A stretch of 64,000 bases of DNA from Psychrobacillus lasiicapitis (GTDB lineage: Bacteria > Bacillota > Bacilli > Bacillales_A > Planococcaceae): assembly GCF_006861795.1 (NCBI RefSeq), contig NZ_VDGH01000014.1:1332-65331 (forward strand). Direction: 5' to 3'. The translations under genes and the position numbers were made by a program. A model generated the notes under the pieces. That model did no database searches. It was not told where the DNA came from and was given only the letters and a program-made list of their open reading frames with translations. This document shows, piece after piece, positions 36,078 through 62,204 of the stretch (position 1 is its first letter; each line of letters opens with the position of its first letter).

Positions 36078-37813
36078 GTACAGGAAAACGACTCTACCAT
36101 TACGCATTATTTTATAAAAAACCAATTTTGCTTGGTTTAATCTTTTTAACAATTGCGGTGTTTGCCGATTTATCGGGGCCTTTCATCGCCAAGACAATCA
36201 TCGACAAACATATTGTAGAAGGTGCCATTGAATTTCAACCGATTCTACTGTTACTAGGATTGTTTTTTGGATTAAGTGTTGTTACGGCAGTTTTTCGATA
36301 TTTCATGTTTATACAGCTACAAATAGGAGCGAATCGGGTGGTACAAAAACTGCGAAACGATGTATTTCAACATATCCAGACGCTACCGATTCAGTACTTT
36401 GACAATTTGCCTGCTGGTAAAGTGGTAGCTCGTGTTACAAATGATACAGAGGCAATTCGTAATTTATATGTGCAAGTATTATCACAATTCGCAACGAGTA
36501 TTATTTCTATTCTAGGGGTCTACATCGCGCTCTTCATACTAAATGTACGAATGGCTTTGATGGCTTTATTTGTTCTACCGATCATTTATATTTGGATGAT
36601 TAGTTATCGTAAATATGCCTCTAAATATAATCATATCGTTCGGACGAAAATTGCGGATTTGAACGCAATGCTCAATGAATCGATTCAGGGGATGTCCATT
36701 ATTCAAGCGTTTAAACGAGAAAAGCAAATGGACCGAGAATTTGAAGAGATGAATGAAGAGCATTATCGCTATCAGAAAAAATTATTAATACTAGATTCCG
36801 CAACATCGTTTAACTTAGTAAGTGTCCTGCGTTCCATTATGTTTATTATGTTCATTACTTATTTTGGCTTCCAATCAATGGATCCAAGTATTATCGTATC
36901 AGCTGGTATGTTGTATGCATTCGTAGATTATACGACTAGATTATTCAACCCAATTACAGGAATCGTAAATCAGTTCTCGCAATTGGAAAGATCACTTGTA
37001 GCTGGTTCTCGTGTTTTTACATTACTTGATGAGTCAGGCGAAAAAGTAGCGGATAAGAAAATGGAGCGATACGAAGGAAATGTAGAGTTTCAAAATGTTT
37101 CATTCGCATACAAGGAGCAAGAGTATGTGTTAAAAAACTTGAACTTTATAGCAAATAAAGGAGAAACGGTGGCACTTGTAGGGCATACAGGATCTGGTAA
37201 AAGCTCCATTATGAATTTATTGTTCCGTTTCTATGATTCTTCCAAAGGGAAAATTCTAATTGATGGAATCGATATTACCAGCCTACCAAGACAAACAATT
37301 CGCGAGCATATGGGAATTGTTTTGCAGGATCCCTACTTGTTTTCTGGAACGATTGCATCGAATGTGAGCTTAAACGATCCGAAAATCTCCCGGGAGAAAG
37401 TAGAGGCTTCATTAGCTGCAGTTGGTGGAGAACGAGTGTTAAAAAACTTGGAAAAAGGTTTGGATGAACCGGTTATTGAGAAAGGGAGCACATTATCTTC
37501 TGGCCAAAGGCAACTCGTGTCTTTTGCTAGAGCACTTGCATTCGATCCAGCTATTCTCATTCTCGATGAAGCAACGTCTAATATTGACACGGAAACTGAA
37601 GAAATCATCCAACATGCAATGGATGTATTGAAAAAAGGAAGAACCACTTTCATCATTGCGCACCGACTTTCTACTATTAAAAATGCAGACCGTATTTTAG
37701 TATTAGACCGCGGGGAAATTGTAGAGAGTGGAACACATGAAGAATTGCTAGAACTGCAAGGTCGCTATGAGCAAATGTATAAATTGCAAGCAGGAGTATC
37801 CTCATACGCATAA
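36074..37813 (+). CDS. bmrD: heterodimeric ABC exporter subunit, BmrD/YheH-like
   Basis: Second half of the exporter: six helices then an ATPase domain with Walker A GHTGSGKSS, Q-loop IVLQDPYLFSG, signature LSSGQRQ and Walker B LILDEATSNID with a catalytic Glu. This subunit therefore supplies one Walker B Glu and its partner the degenerate site. At 579 residues it lacks the roughly 90-residue insertion in the membrane domain of B. subtilis BmrD (about 673 residues). GGGGGTG precedes the ATG, which overlaps the stop of the bmrC-like gene. Substrates are probably amphipathic drugs, by family. Confidence 0.9.
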   Translation: MSTGKRLYHYALFYKKPILLGLIFLTIAVFADLSGPFIAKTIIDKHIVEGAIEFQPILLLLGLFFGLSVVTAVFRYFMFIQLQIGANRVVQKLRNDVFQHIQTLPIQYFDNLPAGKVVARVTNDTEAIRNLYVQVLSQFATSIISILGVYIALFILNVRMALMALFVLPIIYIWMISYRKYASKYNHIVRTKIADLNAMLNESIQGMSIIQAFKREKQMDREFEEMNEEHYRYQKKLLILDSATSFNLVSVLRSIMFIMFITYFGFQSMDPSIIVSAGMLYAFVDYTTRLFNPITGIVNQFSQLERSLVAGSRVFTLLDESGEKVADKKMERYEGNVEFQNVSFAYKEQEYVLKNLNFIANKGETVALVGHTGSGKSSIMNLLFRFYDSSKGKILIDGIDITSLPRQTIREHMGIVLQDPYLFSGTIASNVSLNDPKISREKVEASLAAVGGERVLKNLEKGLDEPVIEKGSTLSSGQRQLVSFARALAFDPAILILDEATSNIDTETEEIIQHAMDVLKKGRTTFIIAHRLSTIKNADRILVLDRGEIVESGTHEELLELQGRYEQMYKLQAGVSSYA

Positions 37814-37915: not shown

Positions 37916-38160
37916 TTTGGACAATTTCCTCGCGAGGTTGGACGATCTCCCTTGTAAACTGGACAATCATTGCAAGGTTGGACAATCCCTCTCAGAAGCT
38001 GGACAATCTTTTCAAAAAGTTGGACAATCTCTCCTCAAAGTTGGACAATCACCTCCAGGAGTTGGACAATCCCTTTCAGAAGTTGGACGATCTTTTCAAA
38101 AGGTTGGACGATCTCCCTCACAAACTGGACAATCATACAAAGTCGTTCAATCTCTCTCCG
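37916..38160 (+). repeat. 21-bp tandem array, core GTTGGACAATC
   Basis: TGGAC(A/G) begins at 37918, 37939, 37960, 37979, 38000, 38021, 38042, 38063, 38084, 38105 and 38126. Steps are exactly 21 except one of 19. Units fall into subtypes that recur in order (CTCTCAGAAG, then CTTTTCAAAA, and so on), so a longer block was duplicated. Because 21 is a multiple of three, all forward frames stay open, but none has a ribosome site. It lies about 105 bases after the bmrD-like stop, in the same orientation. Confidence 0.85.
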
Positions 38161-42758: not shown

Positions 42759-43120
42759 CCTTTTAAAACTAAATGCCTCAGAATTCCAACTAACCGCTCT
42801 AAAATTCCAACTAAACTCAATTCTCGAGAAAAATCCAGCCAAAAAATCCGCTTTCTCATGCTATCATATTGGATAAGTTTTCCTTTTACAACTAAATGCC
42901 TCAGAATTCCAACTAAACTCTCCATTTTTCCAACTAACTGCTCTAAAATTCCAACTAAACTCAATTCTCGAGGAAAATCCAGCCAAAAAATCCGCTTTCT
43001 CAGGGTATTCCATTGGAAAGGATATCCTTTTACAACTAAACGTCTCAGAATTTCAACTAACCGCTCCATTTTTCCAACTAAACATCCTAGAATTCCGACT
43101 AACTTCACTTCTACAAGAAA
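42759..43120 (-). repeat. 21-bp-phased repeat array, core TTTAGTTGGAA
   Basis: Three direct copies of a long unit, beginning (plus coordinates) at 42759, 42882 and 43026. The steps are 123 and 144, and they differ by exactly one 21-bp module. Within a copy the CCAACTA core (TAGTTGG on the minus strand) recurs every 21 bases (42765, 42786, 42807). Each copy also carries a GGATTTTTTGGCTGGATTTT block and a CTCGAG site. The array lies after the terminator of the yhzD-like gene and in that gene's orientation. Confidence 0.85.
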
Positions 43121-43178: not shown

Positions 43179-43364
43179 TCATACATGAAACAATACAAGC
43201 TTCCCTGCGCTATTCACCAAACGATGTGTCTTTTCAAGCAGTCCTTTTTCTTCGATTGCAGCTTCCCCTTTTTTCTTCGCTTCCTCATCGTTCTCAAAAG
43301 TCCAAGTTTCTTCAACAATCAGTTTTCCTGTTGGTTCAAATGCTGTAAATTTATATGTTTTCAT
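43179..43364 (-). CDS. yhzD: YhzD-like small protein
   Basis: A 61-residue soluble protein with a beta-hairpin (YKFTAFEPTGKLIVEETWTFEN) and an acidic helix (DEEAKKKGEAAIEEKGLL). Size and position match YhzD of B. subtilis, function unknown. AAAGGGGTGTG lies upstream of the ATG. It is divergent from the XRE regulator gene. Confidence 0.7.
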   Translation of the reverse strand: MKTYKFTAFEPTGKLIVEETWTFENDEEAKKKGEAAIEEKGLLEKTHRLVNSAGKLVLFHV

Positions 43365-52100: not shown

Positions 52101-52421
52101 CACTTATATAAGTGAAACTTCAATCAGTGGGGGTTTTTCGAAGCACAGGACGTGCTAGTGGGGACGCTGCGACATGGACGTCGCGCTTATAGTCCCCGTC
52201 ATCCCCCACTGATTGTTAGTTGAGGCCCACACGATGTGGGTCACACAGACGTTGCAAACGCTCTTTTATTTTGCGACGAGCTTTGCGCAGGAGCAACATG
52301 ATGTTGCGTACTAGTCTGGGATCATTTCATCGGGCGCATGCCAGCAGTTGATCTTCCACTTATCTTTTCGATTTTCTTCAATCTTGAAGTGGGAGTCTTA
52401 CTGCCCGTTAATGCGGGATAA
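52101..52421 (+). ncRNA. GC-rich multi-stem element, orphan structured RNA or IS200/IS605-type remnant
   Basis: A 320-base block, far richer in GC than its surroundings, with nested stems. The outer stem is AATCAGTGGGGG / CCCCCACTGATT (52122-52133 with 52203-52214). It encloses AGCAC/GTGCT and GGGGAC/GTCCCC with an inner GCGAC/GTCGC. Outside it come CCCACA/TGTGGG (52226-52240), CAACATGATGTTG (52294-52306) and a 3' part GAAGTGGGAG with CCCG-TTAATG-CGGG (52386-52417). The 3' part resembles right ends of tnpB-type IS elements; no transposase or tnpB frame is present. Strand is uncertain. Confidence 0.5.
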
Positions 52422-59935: not shown

Positions 59936-60865
59936 ATGAAAAAGACAATGGGTTTATTAGTAATGGCATATGGCACTCCTTACGAAGAAGCAGATATTGA
60001 ACGTTACTATACGCATATTCGCCATGGCAGGAAACCAAGCGAGGAACAATTAGCAGACCTAACGGGTCGTTACAAGGCAATTGGAGGAATTTCTCCACTG
60101 GCGAAAATAACGCAAAATCAAGCAGAAGGTCTTTGCAAACGCTTAAATGGAGTGCAAGATGAAATCGAATTCAAGCTATATATTGGATTAAAGCATATTG
60201 AGCCTTATTTAGAAGATGCGGTTGCACAAATGCATAAAGATGGAATTACAGAAGCGGTATCTATCGTGTTGGCGCCACATTTCTCTACATTCTCGATCAA
60301 ATCATATAATGGTCGCATCAAGGAAGAAGCGGAGAAATTAGGCAATTTAACGATTACATCCGTGGAAAGTTGGTATGATGAGCCAAAATTCATCCAATAT
60401 TGGAATGAAAAAGTAAGCGAAGCATTTGCAGCAATGTCGGAAGAACAAAGAGAAAAAGCTTGTTTAATCGTTTCTGCTCACTCCCTACCTGAAAAAATTC
60501 TTGCTATGGGAGATCCATATGCAGATCAATTAAACGAGACAGCAGATTTAATCGCAAAAGCGGCAGGCGTGAAAAACTATGCGGTTGGTTGGCAAAGTGC
60601 TGGACAAACTCCAGAGCCATGGATCGGGCCAGATGTACAAGATTTAACCCGCGAATTACACGAAGAAAAGGGCTATACAACTTTTGTGTATACACCAGTT
60701 GGTTTCGTAGCAGAGCATTTAGAAGTACTATACGATAACGATTATGAGTGTAAAGTTGTTTGTGAGGAAATTGGAGCTACTTATGTACGCCCAGCGATGC
60801 CAAATGATCAACCACTATTCATCGATGCAATGGCGGATGTTGTGTTAAAACAGCTTCGTGCGTAA
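59936..60865 (+). CDS. hemH: ferrochelatase (coproporphyrin type)
   Basis: Inserts iron into coproporphyrin III in Firmicutes. The 309 residues begin [30 protein letters not shown], with metal-path [22 protein letters not shown] (catalytic His), [19 protein letters not shown] and [19 protein letters not shown] with the conserved His-x-Glu. GAGGTG precedes the ATG at 59936. In B. subtilis hemY follows; here hemH is followed by a terminator and repeats, so the oxidase gene is elsewhere or absent from this operon. Confidence 0.96.
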
Positions 60866-60880
60866 TTAATAGAAAAATGA

Positions 60881-60926
60881 CATCCCCGAAAACTATTCTA
60901 AGGTGGTTTTTGGGGATTTTTTCTTG
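60881..60926 (+). terminator. hemH terminator
   Basis: Stem ATCCCCGAAAAC / GGTTTTTGGGGAT followed by T6, 16 bases after the stop codon. Its 3' end is shared with the beginning of the repeat unit that follows. Confidence 0.88.
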
Positions 60927-61190
60927 GAAATTTAGTTTAGTTGGAATTTCGGGGAGTTTAGTTGTAAATTTAACATATTTAGTTGTAAAATCTGAGCGTT
61001 TAGTTGTAAAAGGATATTTTATCCAGATTCTAATGGCTTTTTTCAATCCACAAACTCTTTCTCCTTTGATTTTGAGGGATTTTTTCTTGGAAATTTAGTT
61101 TAGTTGGAATTTCGAGGAGTTTAGTTGTAAATTTAACATATTTAGTTGTAAAATCTGAGCATTTAGTTGTAAAAGGATATTTTACCCAGA
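60915..61190 (+). repeat. 21-bp-phased repeat array, core TTTAGTTGTAAA
   Basis: Two direct copies of a 112-base unit, beginning at 60915 and 61078 (GATTTTTTCTTGGAAATTTA). Within the first, GTTGGAA/GTTGTAA begins at 60940, 60961, 60982 and 61003: exactly 21 bases apart. The copies end GGATATTTTA(T/C)CCAGA. Between them is a 51-base spacer that ends in the same TGATTTTGAGGG context as a terminator arm. It follows hemH, in the same orientation. Confidence 0.88.
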
Positions 61191-61265
61191 AACGGCTCAT
61201 ATCTTTAGTGGAATTTCAAACTTTCTTCACACGTATTCGGTAAAATAGTGTTAGGGGGTGGAGAT

Positions 61266-62204
61266 TTGAAAAAGCTAAGTATATTGTTCGTCTTGTTTTT
61301 GCTGGGTGCGTGTGGAAAGCCCTCGTTGCCATCTATTGATCCATCGGTAAAATTTGTCGCAAGCTTAAATACGATAGAAGGAACGATAGATTTCATCTCC
61401 GAGGAGCAGGAAGTTATGGAAAGTTGGCAGCTGGATGCAGCATATACAGGATTTACGTTAGTATCAGATGACCTTTTATTACTATATGGATTTACATTAG
61501 AAGAAGCGGTACTTATTCAGTTGTCTACGGGGAAACAATTGGCAACGTTGGATGTACGAGAAGGAACGACCTTTGCTTACGCTTATGAAGAAAATATTTA
61601 CATAGCAAATGGAAAAGAAAATACGGTTTCTCTTTTCGATCAAAAAGGAGAACTTCTAGCAGAGGCAGCTACTGGGAATTATCCGATGTCGATGATTGCA
61701 CAGGATGGTGATCTGTATGTAGTAAACTTCAAAGATGAAATCCTTTCGATCTTTTCATTAAATTTAACGGAAAAAACGAAATGGGATATTCCGAGTTCCT
61801 CGCATGGGATTTTAGTAAATGGAAACGAACTATGGCTCGGGGGACATGGAGCTGGTAGTAGTCCTAATCGAGTTATTAAAAGATATAATATTAAAACTGG
61901 AGAGTTACTCGGTGAGATAGAAGCACCAATGATGCCGATTGATATGACGGAGGCAGGAAATGGACATATTTTTGCGGTGAGTCATGGAAGCAGCACAGTT
62001 TATGACATTTCAAAAACGGGAGAGGTACTAGCTTCCATGAAAGCAGGCGCGAACCCATTTTCCATCGCAACATTTGGAGAAAACATTGTACTGGCAGGTT
62101 ATGATGATCATCAACTATACTTTATTCATTCGGGAAAAGTAACGAATAAGCTTCAAGTAGGTAAAGGTCCATTTCAGTTAGTCGTAAGGGAGGTTAGCAA
62201 ATGA
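61266..62204 (+). CDS. beta-propeller lipoprotein (YncE-like)
   Basis: A 312-residue exported lipoprotein: signal peptide with lipobox LLGAC, then about six repeats of WD/YVTN-like beta-propeller blades (TGKQLATLDVREGTTFAYAYEENIYIANG, KGELLAEAATGNYPMSMIAQDGDLYVVN, KTGEVLASMKAGANPFSIATFGENIVLAG). Such proteins bind ligands or partners outside the cell. The start is TTG at 61266, because GGGGGTGG lies just upstream and the following codons give the signal peptide. It overlaps the response regulator gene by four bases, so it probably belongs to the signalling unit as a sensor accessory. Confidence 0.82.
   Translation: MKKLSILFVLFLLGACGKPSLPSIDPSVKFVASLNTIEGTIDFISEEQEVMESWQLDAAYTGFTLVSDDLLLLYGFTLEEAVLIQLSTGKQLATLDVREGTTFAYAYEENIYIANGKENTVSLFDQKGELLAEAATGNYPMSMIAQDGDLYVVNFKDEILSIFSLNLTEKTKWDIPSSSHGILVNGNELWLGGHGAGSSPNRVIKRYNIKTGELLGEIEAPMMPIDMTEAGNGHIFAVSHGSSTVYDISKTGEVLASMKAGANPFSIATFGENIVLAGYDDHQLYFIHSGKVTNKLQVGKGPFQLVVREVSK

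Follow-up and report, generated by a model that had tools for sequence, protein, structure and literature searches.

Direct-repeat arrays with a constant 21-bp pitch and changing core words at gene 3' ends in Psychrobacillus

What is the row of short direct repeats that follows the ferrochelatase gene (hemH) of Psychrobacillus lasiicapitis, and is it a peculiarity of this locus? The window, i.e. the whole stretch of 64,000 nucleotides that was analysed, carries at this place eight cores of the form TTTAGTTGKAA, in exact 21-bp steps within each of two copies of a larger block (Table 1). The GTTGGAA/GTTGTAA cores that an initial annotation, made from the sequence alone, had placed at 60940, 60961, 60982 and 61003 are present and recur in the second copy at 61103, 61124, 61145 and 61166. 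Its repeat unit of 112 bases in two copies was slightly short: there are indeed two copies, but the aligned block measures 124 nt, with 95% identity between the copies and starts 163 bp apart. The alignment places the start of copy 1 at 60904, within the right arm of the terminator hairpin; the block then crosses the T-run, in which the unit had been said to begin. On direct reading, the second copy terminates in GGATATTTTACCC. The window contains 14 copies of TTTAGTTGKAA, where shuffles predict 0.27. When lags of 14-35 bp were scanned over the 64 kb, matches were obtained at 21 only and came from three loci: (i) hemH, (ii) an array at 42.8 kb, located between yhzD (43188-43364, minus strand) and an enoyl-CoA hydratase gene (plus strand) according to Pfam, and (iii) an array at 37.9 kb with another core (scan matches at 37962-38141), which comes after an ABC-transporter gene (Pfam) and has nine spacings of 21 and one of 19.

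Table 1. Features of the array loci in the window
Feature	Position	Strand	Basis
hemH (ferrochelatase), gene preceding the array	59936..60865	+	Pfam Ferrochelatase, E 5.9e-85
Intrinsic-terminator-like hairpin and T-run of hemH	about 60882-60917 (hairpin), 60917-60922 (T-run)	+	direct reading
hemH array block, copy 1, 124 nt	60904..61027	+	repeat alignment
Four TTTAGTTGKAA cores, copy 1	60936, 60957, 60978, 60999 (span 60936-61009)	+	exact pattern match
Tail palindrome of copy 1, GGATATTTTATCC	61012..61024	+	direct reading; comparable tails at other arrays
hemH array block, copy 2, 124 nt	61067..61190	+	repeat alignment
Four TTTAGTTGKAA cores, copy 2	61099, 61120, 61141, 61162 (span 61099-61172)	+	exact pattern match
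Next gene, lipoprotein-like by eye	61248..62204	+	weak Mala_s_1-like match, below cut-off
42.8-kb array, TTTAGTTGKAA core, three units with 4, 4 and 3 cores	42763..43103	-	pattern and repeat reading
37.9-kb array, core (G)TTGGACRATC (GTTGGACAATC type), 11 copies	37918..38146	+	lag scan and reading

The idea of a 21-bp repeat family present in several loci was borne out well beyond the window: the family is genome-wide, keeps a strict 21-bp pitch and is located after genes. Indeed, the host genome (4.49 Mb, 28 contigs; G000 in the genome comparisons) contains 109 TTTAGTTGKAA cores against 16 for a reversed control, and 95 same-strand core pairs at 21 bp against 1 for the reversed control when up to three mismatches are allowed; 23 clusters were read in it, a few weak extra ones among those listed lying outside this count. 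The fairest view of the spacing is given by a single-core search blind to distance, drawn from the 100 of the 109 exact cores that were listed: neighbour distances of at most 100 bp are 21 in 39 of 52 cases, 42 in eight and 63 in one, the remaining four being 39, 81 (twice) and 100. Over all loci with one mismatch, distances of 21 (248 times), 20 (7), 22 (1), 27 (1), 40 (1), 42 (8) and 65 (1) were counted, i.e. 248 of the 256 distances below 25 bp are 21, a distribution that is biased in that the majority of loci were retrieved with a 21-bp pattern. A core-free lag scan of 329,514 bp of Psychrobacillus DNA, a non-random sample made of the window and 14 stretches syntenic with its array sites, gave 13 matches at lag 21, eight at lag 42 and at most two at every other lag from 10 to 45, and 280 kb around the origin of G003 gave two matches at lag 21 (one known array and one new core) and one at each of three other lags. 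A larger histogram, with 69 matches at lag 21, is biased because most of its DNA was retrieved by the TTTAGTTGKAA core. The 21-bp lag is less exclusive in stretches from the wider family than in Psychrobacillus: 20 contig-start stretches of family genomes (370 kb without N) gave seven matches each at lags 21 and 40 and five each at lags 16, 20 and 42, partly simple repeats. In 20 contig-start stretches from other families (388 kb without N), the three matches at lag 21 do not rise above lags 12, 18 and 24 and look coding-like by eye.

Each unit of the TTTAGTTGKAA type consists of an 11-bp core, which varies much only at its first base (T or G) and at the K position, and a 10-bp spacer, which is A/T-rich at its start and T-poor afterwards; the columns of both are G-rich and C-poor on the sense strand. 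Among 89 continuous arrays, four of them non-Psychrobacillus, the number of cores is 2 (9 arrays), 3 (9), 4 (42), 5 (28) or 7 (1), i.e. four or five in 70. The K=T variant builds up toward the 3' end of the row, with T at 3, 0, 1, 13 and 14 of 28 at positions 1-5 of the five-core arrays (orthologues counted separately), and past the last core a short inverted partner, e.g. GGATATTTTATCC or TTCCA, is often seen by eye. Palindromic spacers were considered and rejected (z 2.2 in 22 units of the GTTGGACAATC family and 0.7 in 248 TTTAGTTGKAA units). Some spacer columns of the TTTAGTTGKAA type are enriched in Watson-Crick pairs (13 and 21, z 5.5; 14-21 and 9-21, z 4.4; 12-21, z 3.9), which is read as two spacer types, a T-run with final A and an A-run without it, and not as a stem; the alternation of these two types is weak (81 unlike neighbours against 67.7 expected, z 2.3).

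As 21 bp correspond to seven codons, the arrays might encode small heptad-repeat proteins. The TTA-GTT-GKA frame is open across 80 of the 89 arrays and, in the 80 arrays of at least three cores, holds 11 stops where column shuffles give 23 (sd 3.8); stops are also depleted in one reverse frame (40 stops against 58.4, sd 5.4). However, within the core, third codon positions vary as little as the other two, 19- and 20-bp spacings exist and the arrays lie in both orientations between genes, and a coding function is considered extremely improbable.

Outside the host, two exact TTTAGTTGGAA at 21 bp were found in 44 stretches of the named collection, namely 40 from Psychrobacillus, two from Paenisporosarcina sp. 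HGH0030 and two from other MAGs. Triplets of GTTGKA at this pitch are present in 11 of 19 Psychrobacillus genomes and in 43 of 261 family genomes; among the eight Psychrobacillus genomes devoid of them, G001 has another core. In the class sample, 15 of 398 genomes match, five of them within the family and 10 among the 359 outside it, and six out-of-family arrays that were inspected are near-perfect tandem repeats or coding-repeat-like by eye. The reversed control pattern is itself frequent in G069 (73) and G200 (77), with 9-16 matches in G004, G013, G108 and G114; G200 also has a 21-bp core of its own, GCCCATAA. Near the end of a Lachnospiraceae-labelled MAG contig, possibly mis-binned, a four-core TTTAGTTG array was noticed (L179 5197-5270). 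Viral contigs gave no exact match for three phased cores, and a phage origin was rejected, a looser pattern having returned 14 viral stretches, all within stop-free frames of at least 123 aa. Such arrays are not described in the literature covered, including the consulted sections of a Psychrobacillus genome paper (PMC11376405), which is weak evidence of novelty since most subscription journals lie outside this scope.

Where the arrays stand relative to genes was determined for 76 clusters (23 from the host genome, 20 from G016 and 33 from the named set), of which four are not from Psychrobacillus. An initial sort based on open reading frames gave 31 convergent, 20 tandem-sense, 18 tandem-antisense and one divergent context, and six at a locus edge. 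Once the four non-Psychrobacillus clusters had been removed and two others (42.8 kb and L094) reassigned as convergent because of ORF-caller errors, the 72 Psychrobacillus clusters comprised 33 convergent, 17 tandem-sense, 16 tandem-antisense, one divergent and five edge cases; without those of G016, which are largely orthologous, the figures are 22, 11, 13, one and five (n=52). By comparison, these loci contain 288 further gaps of 80-600 bp between genes, of which 37 are convergent, 169 tandem and 82 divergent. The arrays are placed at gene 3' ends, and divergent promoters are avoided.

In the three loci of the window, the array does follow a gene and run in its direction, as the initial annotation had noted (hemH; yhzD on the minus strand; the ABC-transporter gene ending at 37813). 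Extended beyond the window, this sense-direction rule fails, tandem-sense and tandem-antisense clusters being nearly equal in number; it is a small-sample effect, whereas the 3'-end placement is real. For some clusters, antisense placement is firmly established, namely at L104, which lies between a methyltransferase gene and a 459-aa frame, and at L105, which adjoins a peptidase gene; both recur in P. soli and in G016. Of the two survey outcomes that had been named as counting against the proposal when found together, random orientation is roughly what tandem contexts display, and a lack of 21-bp excess is clearly false. As to the roles that had been suggested, the placement is consistent with a DNA-level role between transcription units, and the arrays may have a role in chromosome packaging or DNA topology, while 3'-end formation that depends on the sense strand is unlikely, since sense and antisense are about equally represented in tandem contexts.

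An action at the transcript level, whether 3'-end processing, read-through control or Rho-dependent termination of antisense transcripts, would agree with the arrays abutting terminators, TTTTT being present within 40 bp upstream of 42 of the 76 clusters and downstream of only 15, and with the antisense strand of TTTAGTTGKAA arrays being C-rich and G-poor over 80-100 nt. On the other hand, sense and antisense are nearly balanced in tandem contexts, AAAAA lies within 40 bp after 32 of the 76 clusters, and the strand bias is not general, as GTTGGACAATC units have more C than G on the sense strand. Furthermore, RNA folding of six array regions on both strands revealed no excess stability over shuffles (z -0.9 to +1.8), and an exact 21-nt pitch is of no evident need to a flexible RNA. 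Transcript-level action is thus quite improbable, and the lack of both a tandem strand preference and excess folding points to DNA rather than RNA. Within window positions 37000-62000, Rfam gave no match over the three arrays, the sole matches above the gathering score being two Bacillaceae-1 RNAs in tandem on the minus strand at 52142-52330.

The cores are also better conserved than their surroundings. Between the host genome and G016, substitutions at 18 loci amount to 67 of 978 positions in cores (6.9%), 178 of 676 in spacers (26.3%) and 304 of 1998 in the 60-bp flanks (15.2%), counts that are inflated because of unit reshuffling at three loci. When these three (L101, 42.8 kb and hemH, with reshuffled units or poor registration) are set aside, the values are 35 of 736, 111 of 509 and 256 of 1653, respectively. 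The 37.9-kb locus was mapped in this comparison and is devoid of TTTAGTTGKAA cores; L088, L094, L100 and L103 are without counterpart in the set of stretches on which these counts rest. Copy number shifts mostly by whole 21-bp units in the comparisons read: L088 has four cores in the host and one in G016 (63 bp), L105 has five in the host, two in G016, four in P. soli and three in OK032, L104 has three against five and five in its orthologues, and L100 has four against three in both G016 and G009. In G011, about 40 bp were gained and 21 lost at L100, which is not a clean multiple of 21, and the L088 site is without array in G011, G009 and G013. As the arrays of L104 and L105 are common to P. 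soli and G016, these two are old and their cores have been kept; a recent spread might also keep cores conserved, but orthologous arrays across species make this less likely. In G016, the L088 site is adjoined (L334) by a dispersed repeat whose motifs are CTTTCCGCGGGC-like and GCTGGAGTCGCCACC-like and which lies within about 500 bp of extra DNA next to the shrunken array; variants of this repeat also lie 3' of hemH in G004, G006, G007 and G008 (L125, L118, L126 and L122, respectively) and in several Psychrobacillus intergenic regions.

Different cores occupy the same sites at the same pitch. Among 19 species read 3' of hemH, a TTTAGTTG array is present in five (G000, G016, G009, G011 and G013, the last with several tandem units) and a 20/21-bp array of ATCTCAGAAAATC in G003 and G010; TTTGTGAAACTC-like pairs near hemH in G004 and G007, being two copies only, were left out of the counts. 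At the 37.9-kb site, for which nine species have both flanks, the core is GTTGGACAATC in G000 and G016, TTTGGGGAACTC in G013, GCGCCCGAG-like in G014 and TAGTTGGAA in G005, while G010, G011 and G017 have no 21-bp array and G003 has no gap there. The orthologous stretch of G017 (L277 11955-13284) carries repeated copies of very roughly 190 bp with AAAATCGTTGAAAAAGGCG where other species have the 21-bp array. At the 42.8-kb site, TTTAGTTG is found in G000, G016, G011 and G013 and TTTAGGRGC in G001, among 16 species read, some of whose stretches do not span the site. Elsewhere in the family, five of the 20 contig-start stretches have 21-bp arrays of other words, intergenic-looking by eye (G051, G097, G190, G200 and G220), spacings of 19 and 20 bp exist in some other core families, and several core types coexist within one genome in G000, G003, G010, G013, G107 and G114. 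By eye, units of G107 and G111 have spacers alike and cores different. Further repeats were noticed: at 21 bp, a CGAGACYAA-like one at L395 15667-15750 (G003) and a ACCGATCATA-like one at L416 5888-5974 (G202), and, at the contig start of L312 (G208), one with a period of roughly 20/40 bp in which GAGCGGTTCCAACG alternates with GGGCGCTTCCCCGGAG.

The pitch of two helical turns, the conserved cores with free spacers, the near-fixed number of cores, the lack of RNA structure and the lack of tandem strand preference argue for cooperative binding to duplex DNA. We therefore tentatively read the arrays as rows of binding sites for a putative protein, in the niche occupied elsewhere by REP/BIME elements, with a probability of roughly 0.4. 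A putative core-specific DNA-binding protein would recognise each 11-bp core; with the repeat on one strand every 21 bp, neighbouring molecules would stand on the same face of the helix and could form a cooperative row of four or five. Such rows would fill the short intervals next to intrinsic terminators, especially those separating convergent genes, and could serve as anchors or barriers between transcription units, as proposed for BIMEs. In each lineage, core and protein would drift together, with pitch and location persisting. Selection on place and pitch, combined with co-evolution of the core and its reader, would be expected to leave different species with different cores at shared 3' sites, as is observed. 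Several core types in one genome would require several readers. The 19- and 20-bp spacings, the irregular change at L100 in G011 and the patchy presence of the arrays, with GTTGKA triplets missing from 8 of 19 Psychrobacillus genomes, count against protein binding.

Duplication and spread of whole units make a serious rival of another reading, in which the arrays are selfish or neutral REP/MITE-like repeats; these would disperse as four- or five-core units and simply be tolerated where genes end, with unequal recombination adding or removing 21-bp units. Whole-unit duplications are seen at hemH (163 bp), at 42.8 kb (three units) and at hemH in G013 (several tandem units); units at separate loci of G107 have position-specific spacers in common by eye; and presence in 11 of 19 Psychrobacillus genomes is patchy. 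The placement profile is likewise REP-like, REPs being located mainly between unidirectional and convergent ORFs according to the consulted sections of PMC3733652. Spread of this kind nevertheless leaves several features unaccounted for: at orthologous loci the core is about four times better conserved than the spacers and twice better than the flanks, the pitch is strict although the spacers have diverged, a single mobile family does not account for unrelated cores that share both pitch and site, and none of 10 flanking or window proteins is a transposase according to Pfam. The selfish-repeat reading is regarded as somewhat doubtful. Cooperative protein binding could also be part of a wider scheme, held to be rather doubtful, in which Planococcaceae would use a pitch-coded chromosomal mark: two-turn rows at gene 3' ends would carry a lineage-specific core word read by its own fast-evolving putative protein, new cores would replace old ones at these sites without any change in the 21-bp pitch, and orientation may also follow replication.

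Comparison with known systems places the arrays, in our rating, as a variant of dispersed 3'-end repeats. REP/BIME elements (GTAG and CGTC families) are described, in the same sections of PMC3733652, as short dispersed intergenic repeats downstream of genes, with several families per genome and a proposed role in supercoiling or at 3' ends. The arrays are also dispersed, intergenic, located at gene 3' ends in convergent or unidirectional contexts (one of 72 divergent, against 82 of 288 background gaps) and of several families per genome. Unlike REPs, which are palindromes of 20-40 bp, they are direct repeats at a fixed 21-bp pitch, non-palindromic apart from the frequent short tail and without stem-loops in the folded regions, and the lineages that carry them swap the core and keep the pitch and sometimes the site. 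CRISPR/TIGR-type arrays also alternate near-identical repeats with variable spacers, the repeats differing among arrays, as is the case here. However, CRISPR repeats measure at least about 24 bp, have spacers of comparable length and occur at one or few loci, whereas the present arrays have an 11-bp core and a 10-bp spacer, form 23 clusters or two dozen tiny arrays genome-wide, and have spacers that remain alignable between species at orthologous positions. Plasmid iterons and ParR/parC-type partition arrays consist of helically phased direct repeats to which a single protein binds cooperatively, at one site per replicon beside the gene of that protein; the arrays occupy dozens of chromosomal 3'-end sites.

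LytTR-type regulators recognise repeats 9 bp long with a GTT-centred consensus, and the arrays could be multi-site operators of such a regulator binding direct repeats about 21 bp apart. In the consulted sections of PMC6193735, 12 bp separates most direct repeats, i.e. about 21 bp from centre to centre if the repeats are 9 bp long. The pitch thus agrees, but the described sites are pairs upstream of promoters and the arrays line up four or five repeats at 3' ends; in addition, all 19 genomes have 2-6 LytTR matches, with or without arrays and with no correlation, and this regulator type is a very improbable reader.

Dispersed 3'-end intergenic repeats are known. Here, the words differ among related species, sometimes at identical places, and this suggests that keeping the spacing fixed counts for more than which word is used. 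What was observed at hemH is part of something larger than the initial annotation saw: a family defined by its constant helical pitch, in which core words change and sites shared by related species are rewritten, points to a putative DNA-binding system and an unusual concerted evolution, and would bear on what lies between bacterial transcription units.

Finally, the orientation of the arrays may be linked to replication. A process tied to fork direction might make, keep or use oriented 21-bp arrays, e.g. as fork barriers or segregation signals; this is unlikely. The orientation bias, though suggestive, is not consistent from one genus to another. The grouping of clusters was manual, the terminus was either placed by a few GC-skew points or assumed to face the origin, and in drafts gene strand is only a proxy. 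With these approximations, G202, one of four chromosomes examined, runs the opposite way, 9 of 10 clusters being on the lagging side, and only 19 of the 33 named-set clusters (four of them not Psychrobacillus) agree with the local gene majority. Leading-strand orientation was found for 8 of 12 clusters in G010, a weak bias that alone is not significant, for 17 of 22 in G107 (GC skew at 10 points) and for 13 of 15 in G003 (10 of the TTTAGTTGKAA core and five of another). Among the 31 clusters called convergent, 18 strongly agree with the local majority gene strand and three oppose it. In G003, the origin was forecast in advance at 3.1-3.5 Mb from the arrays and hemH, and dnaA was then found at about 3.192 Mb, together with a GC-skew flip.
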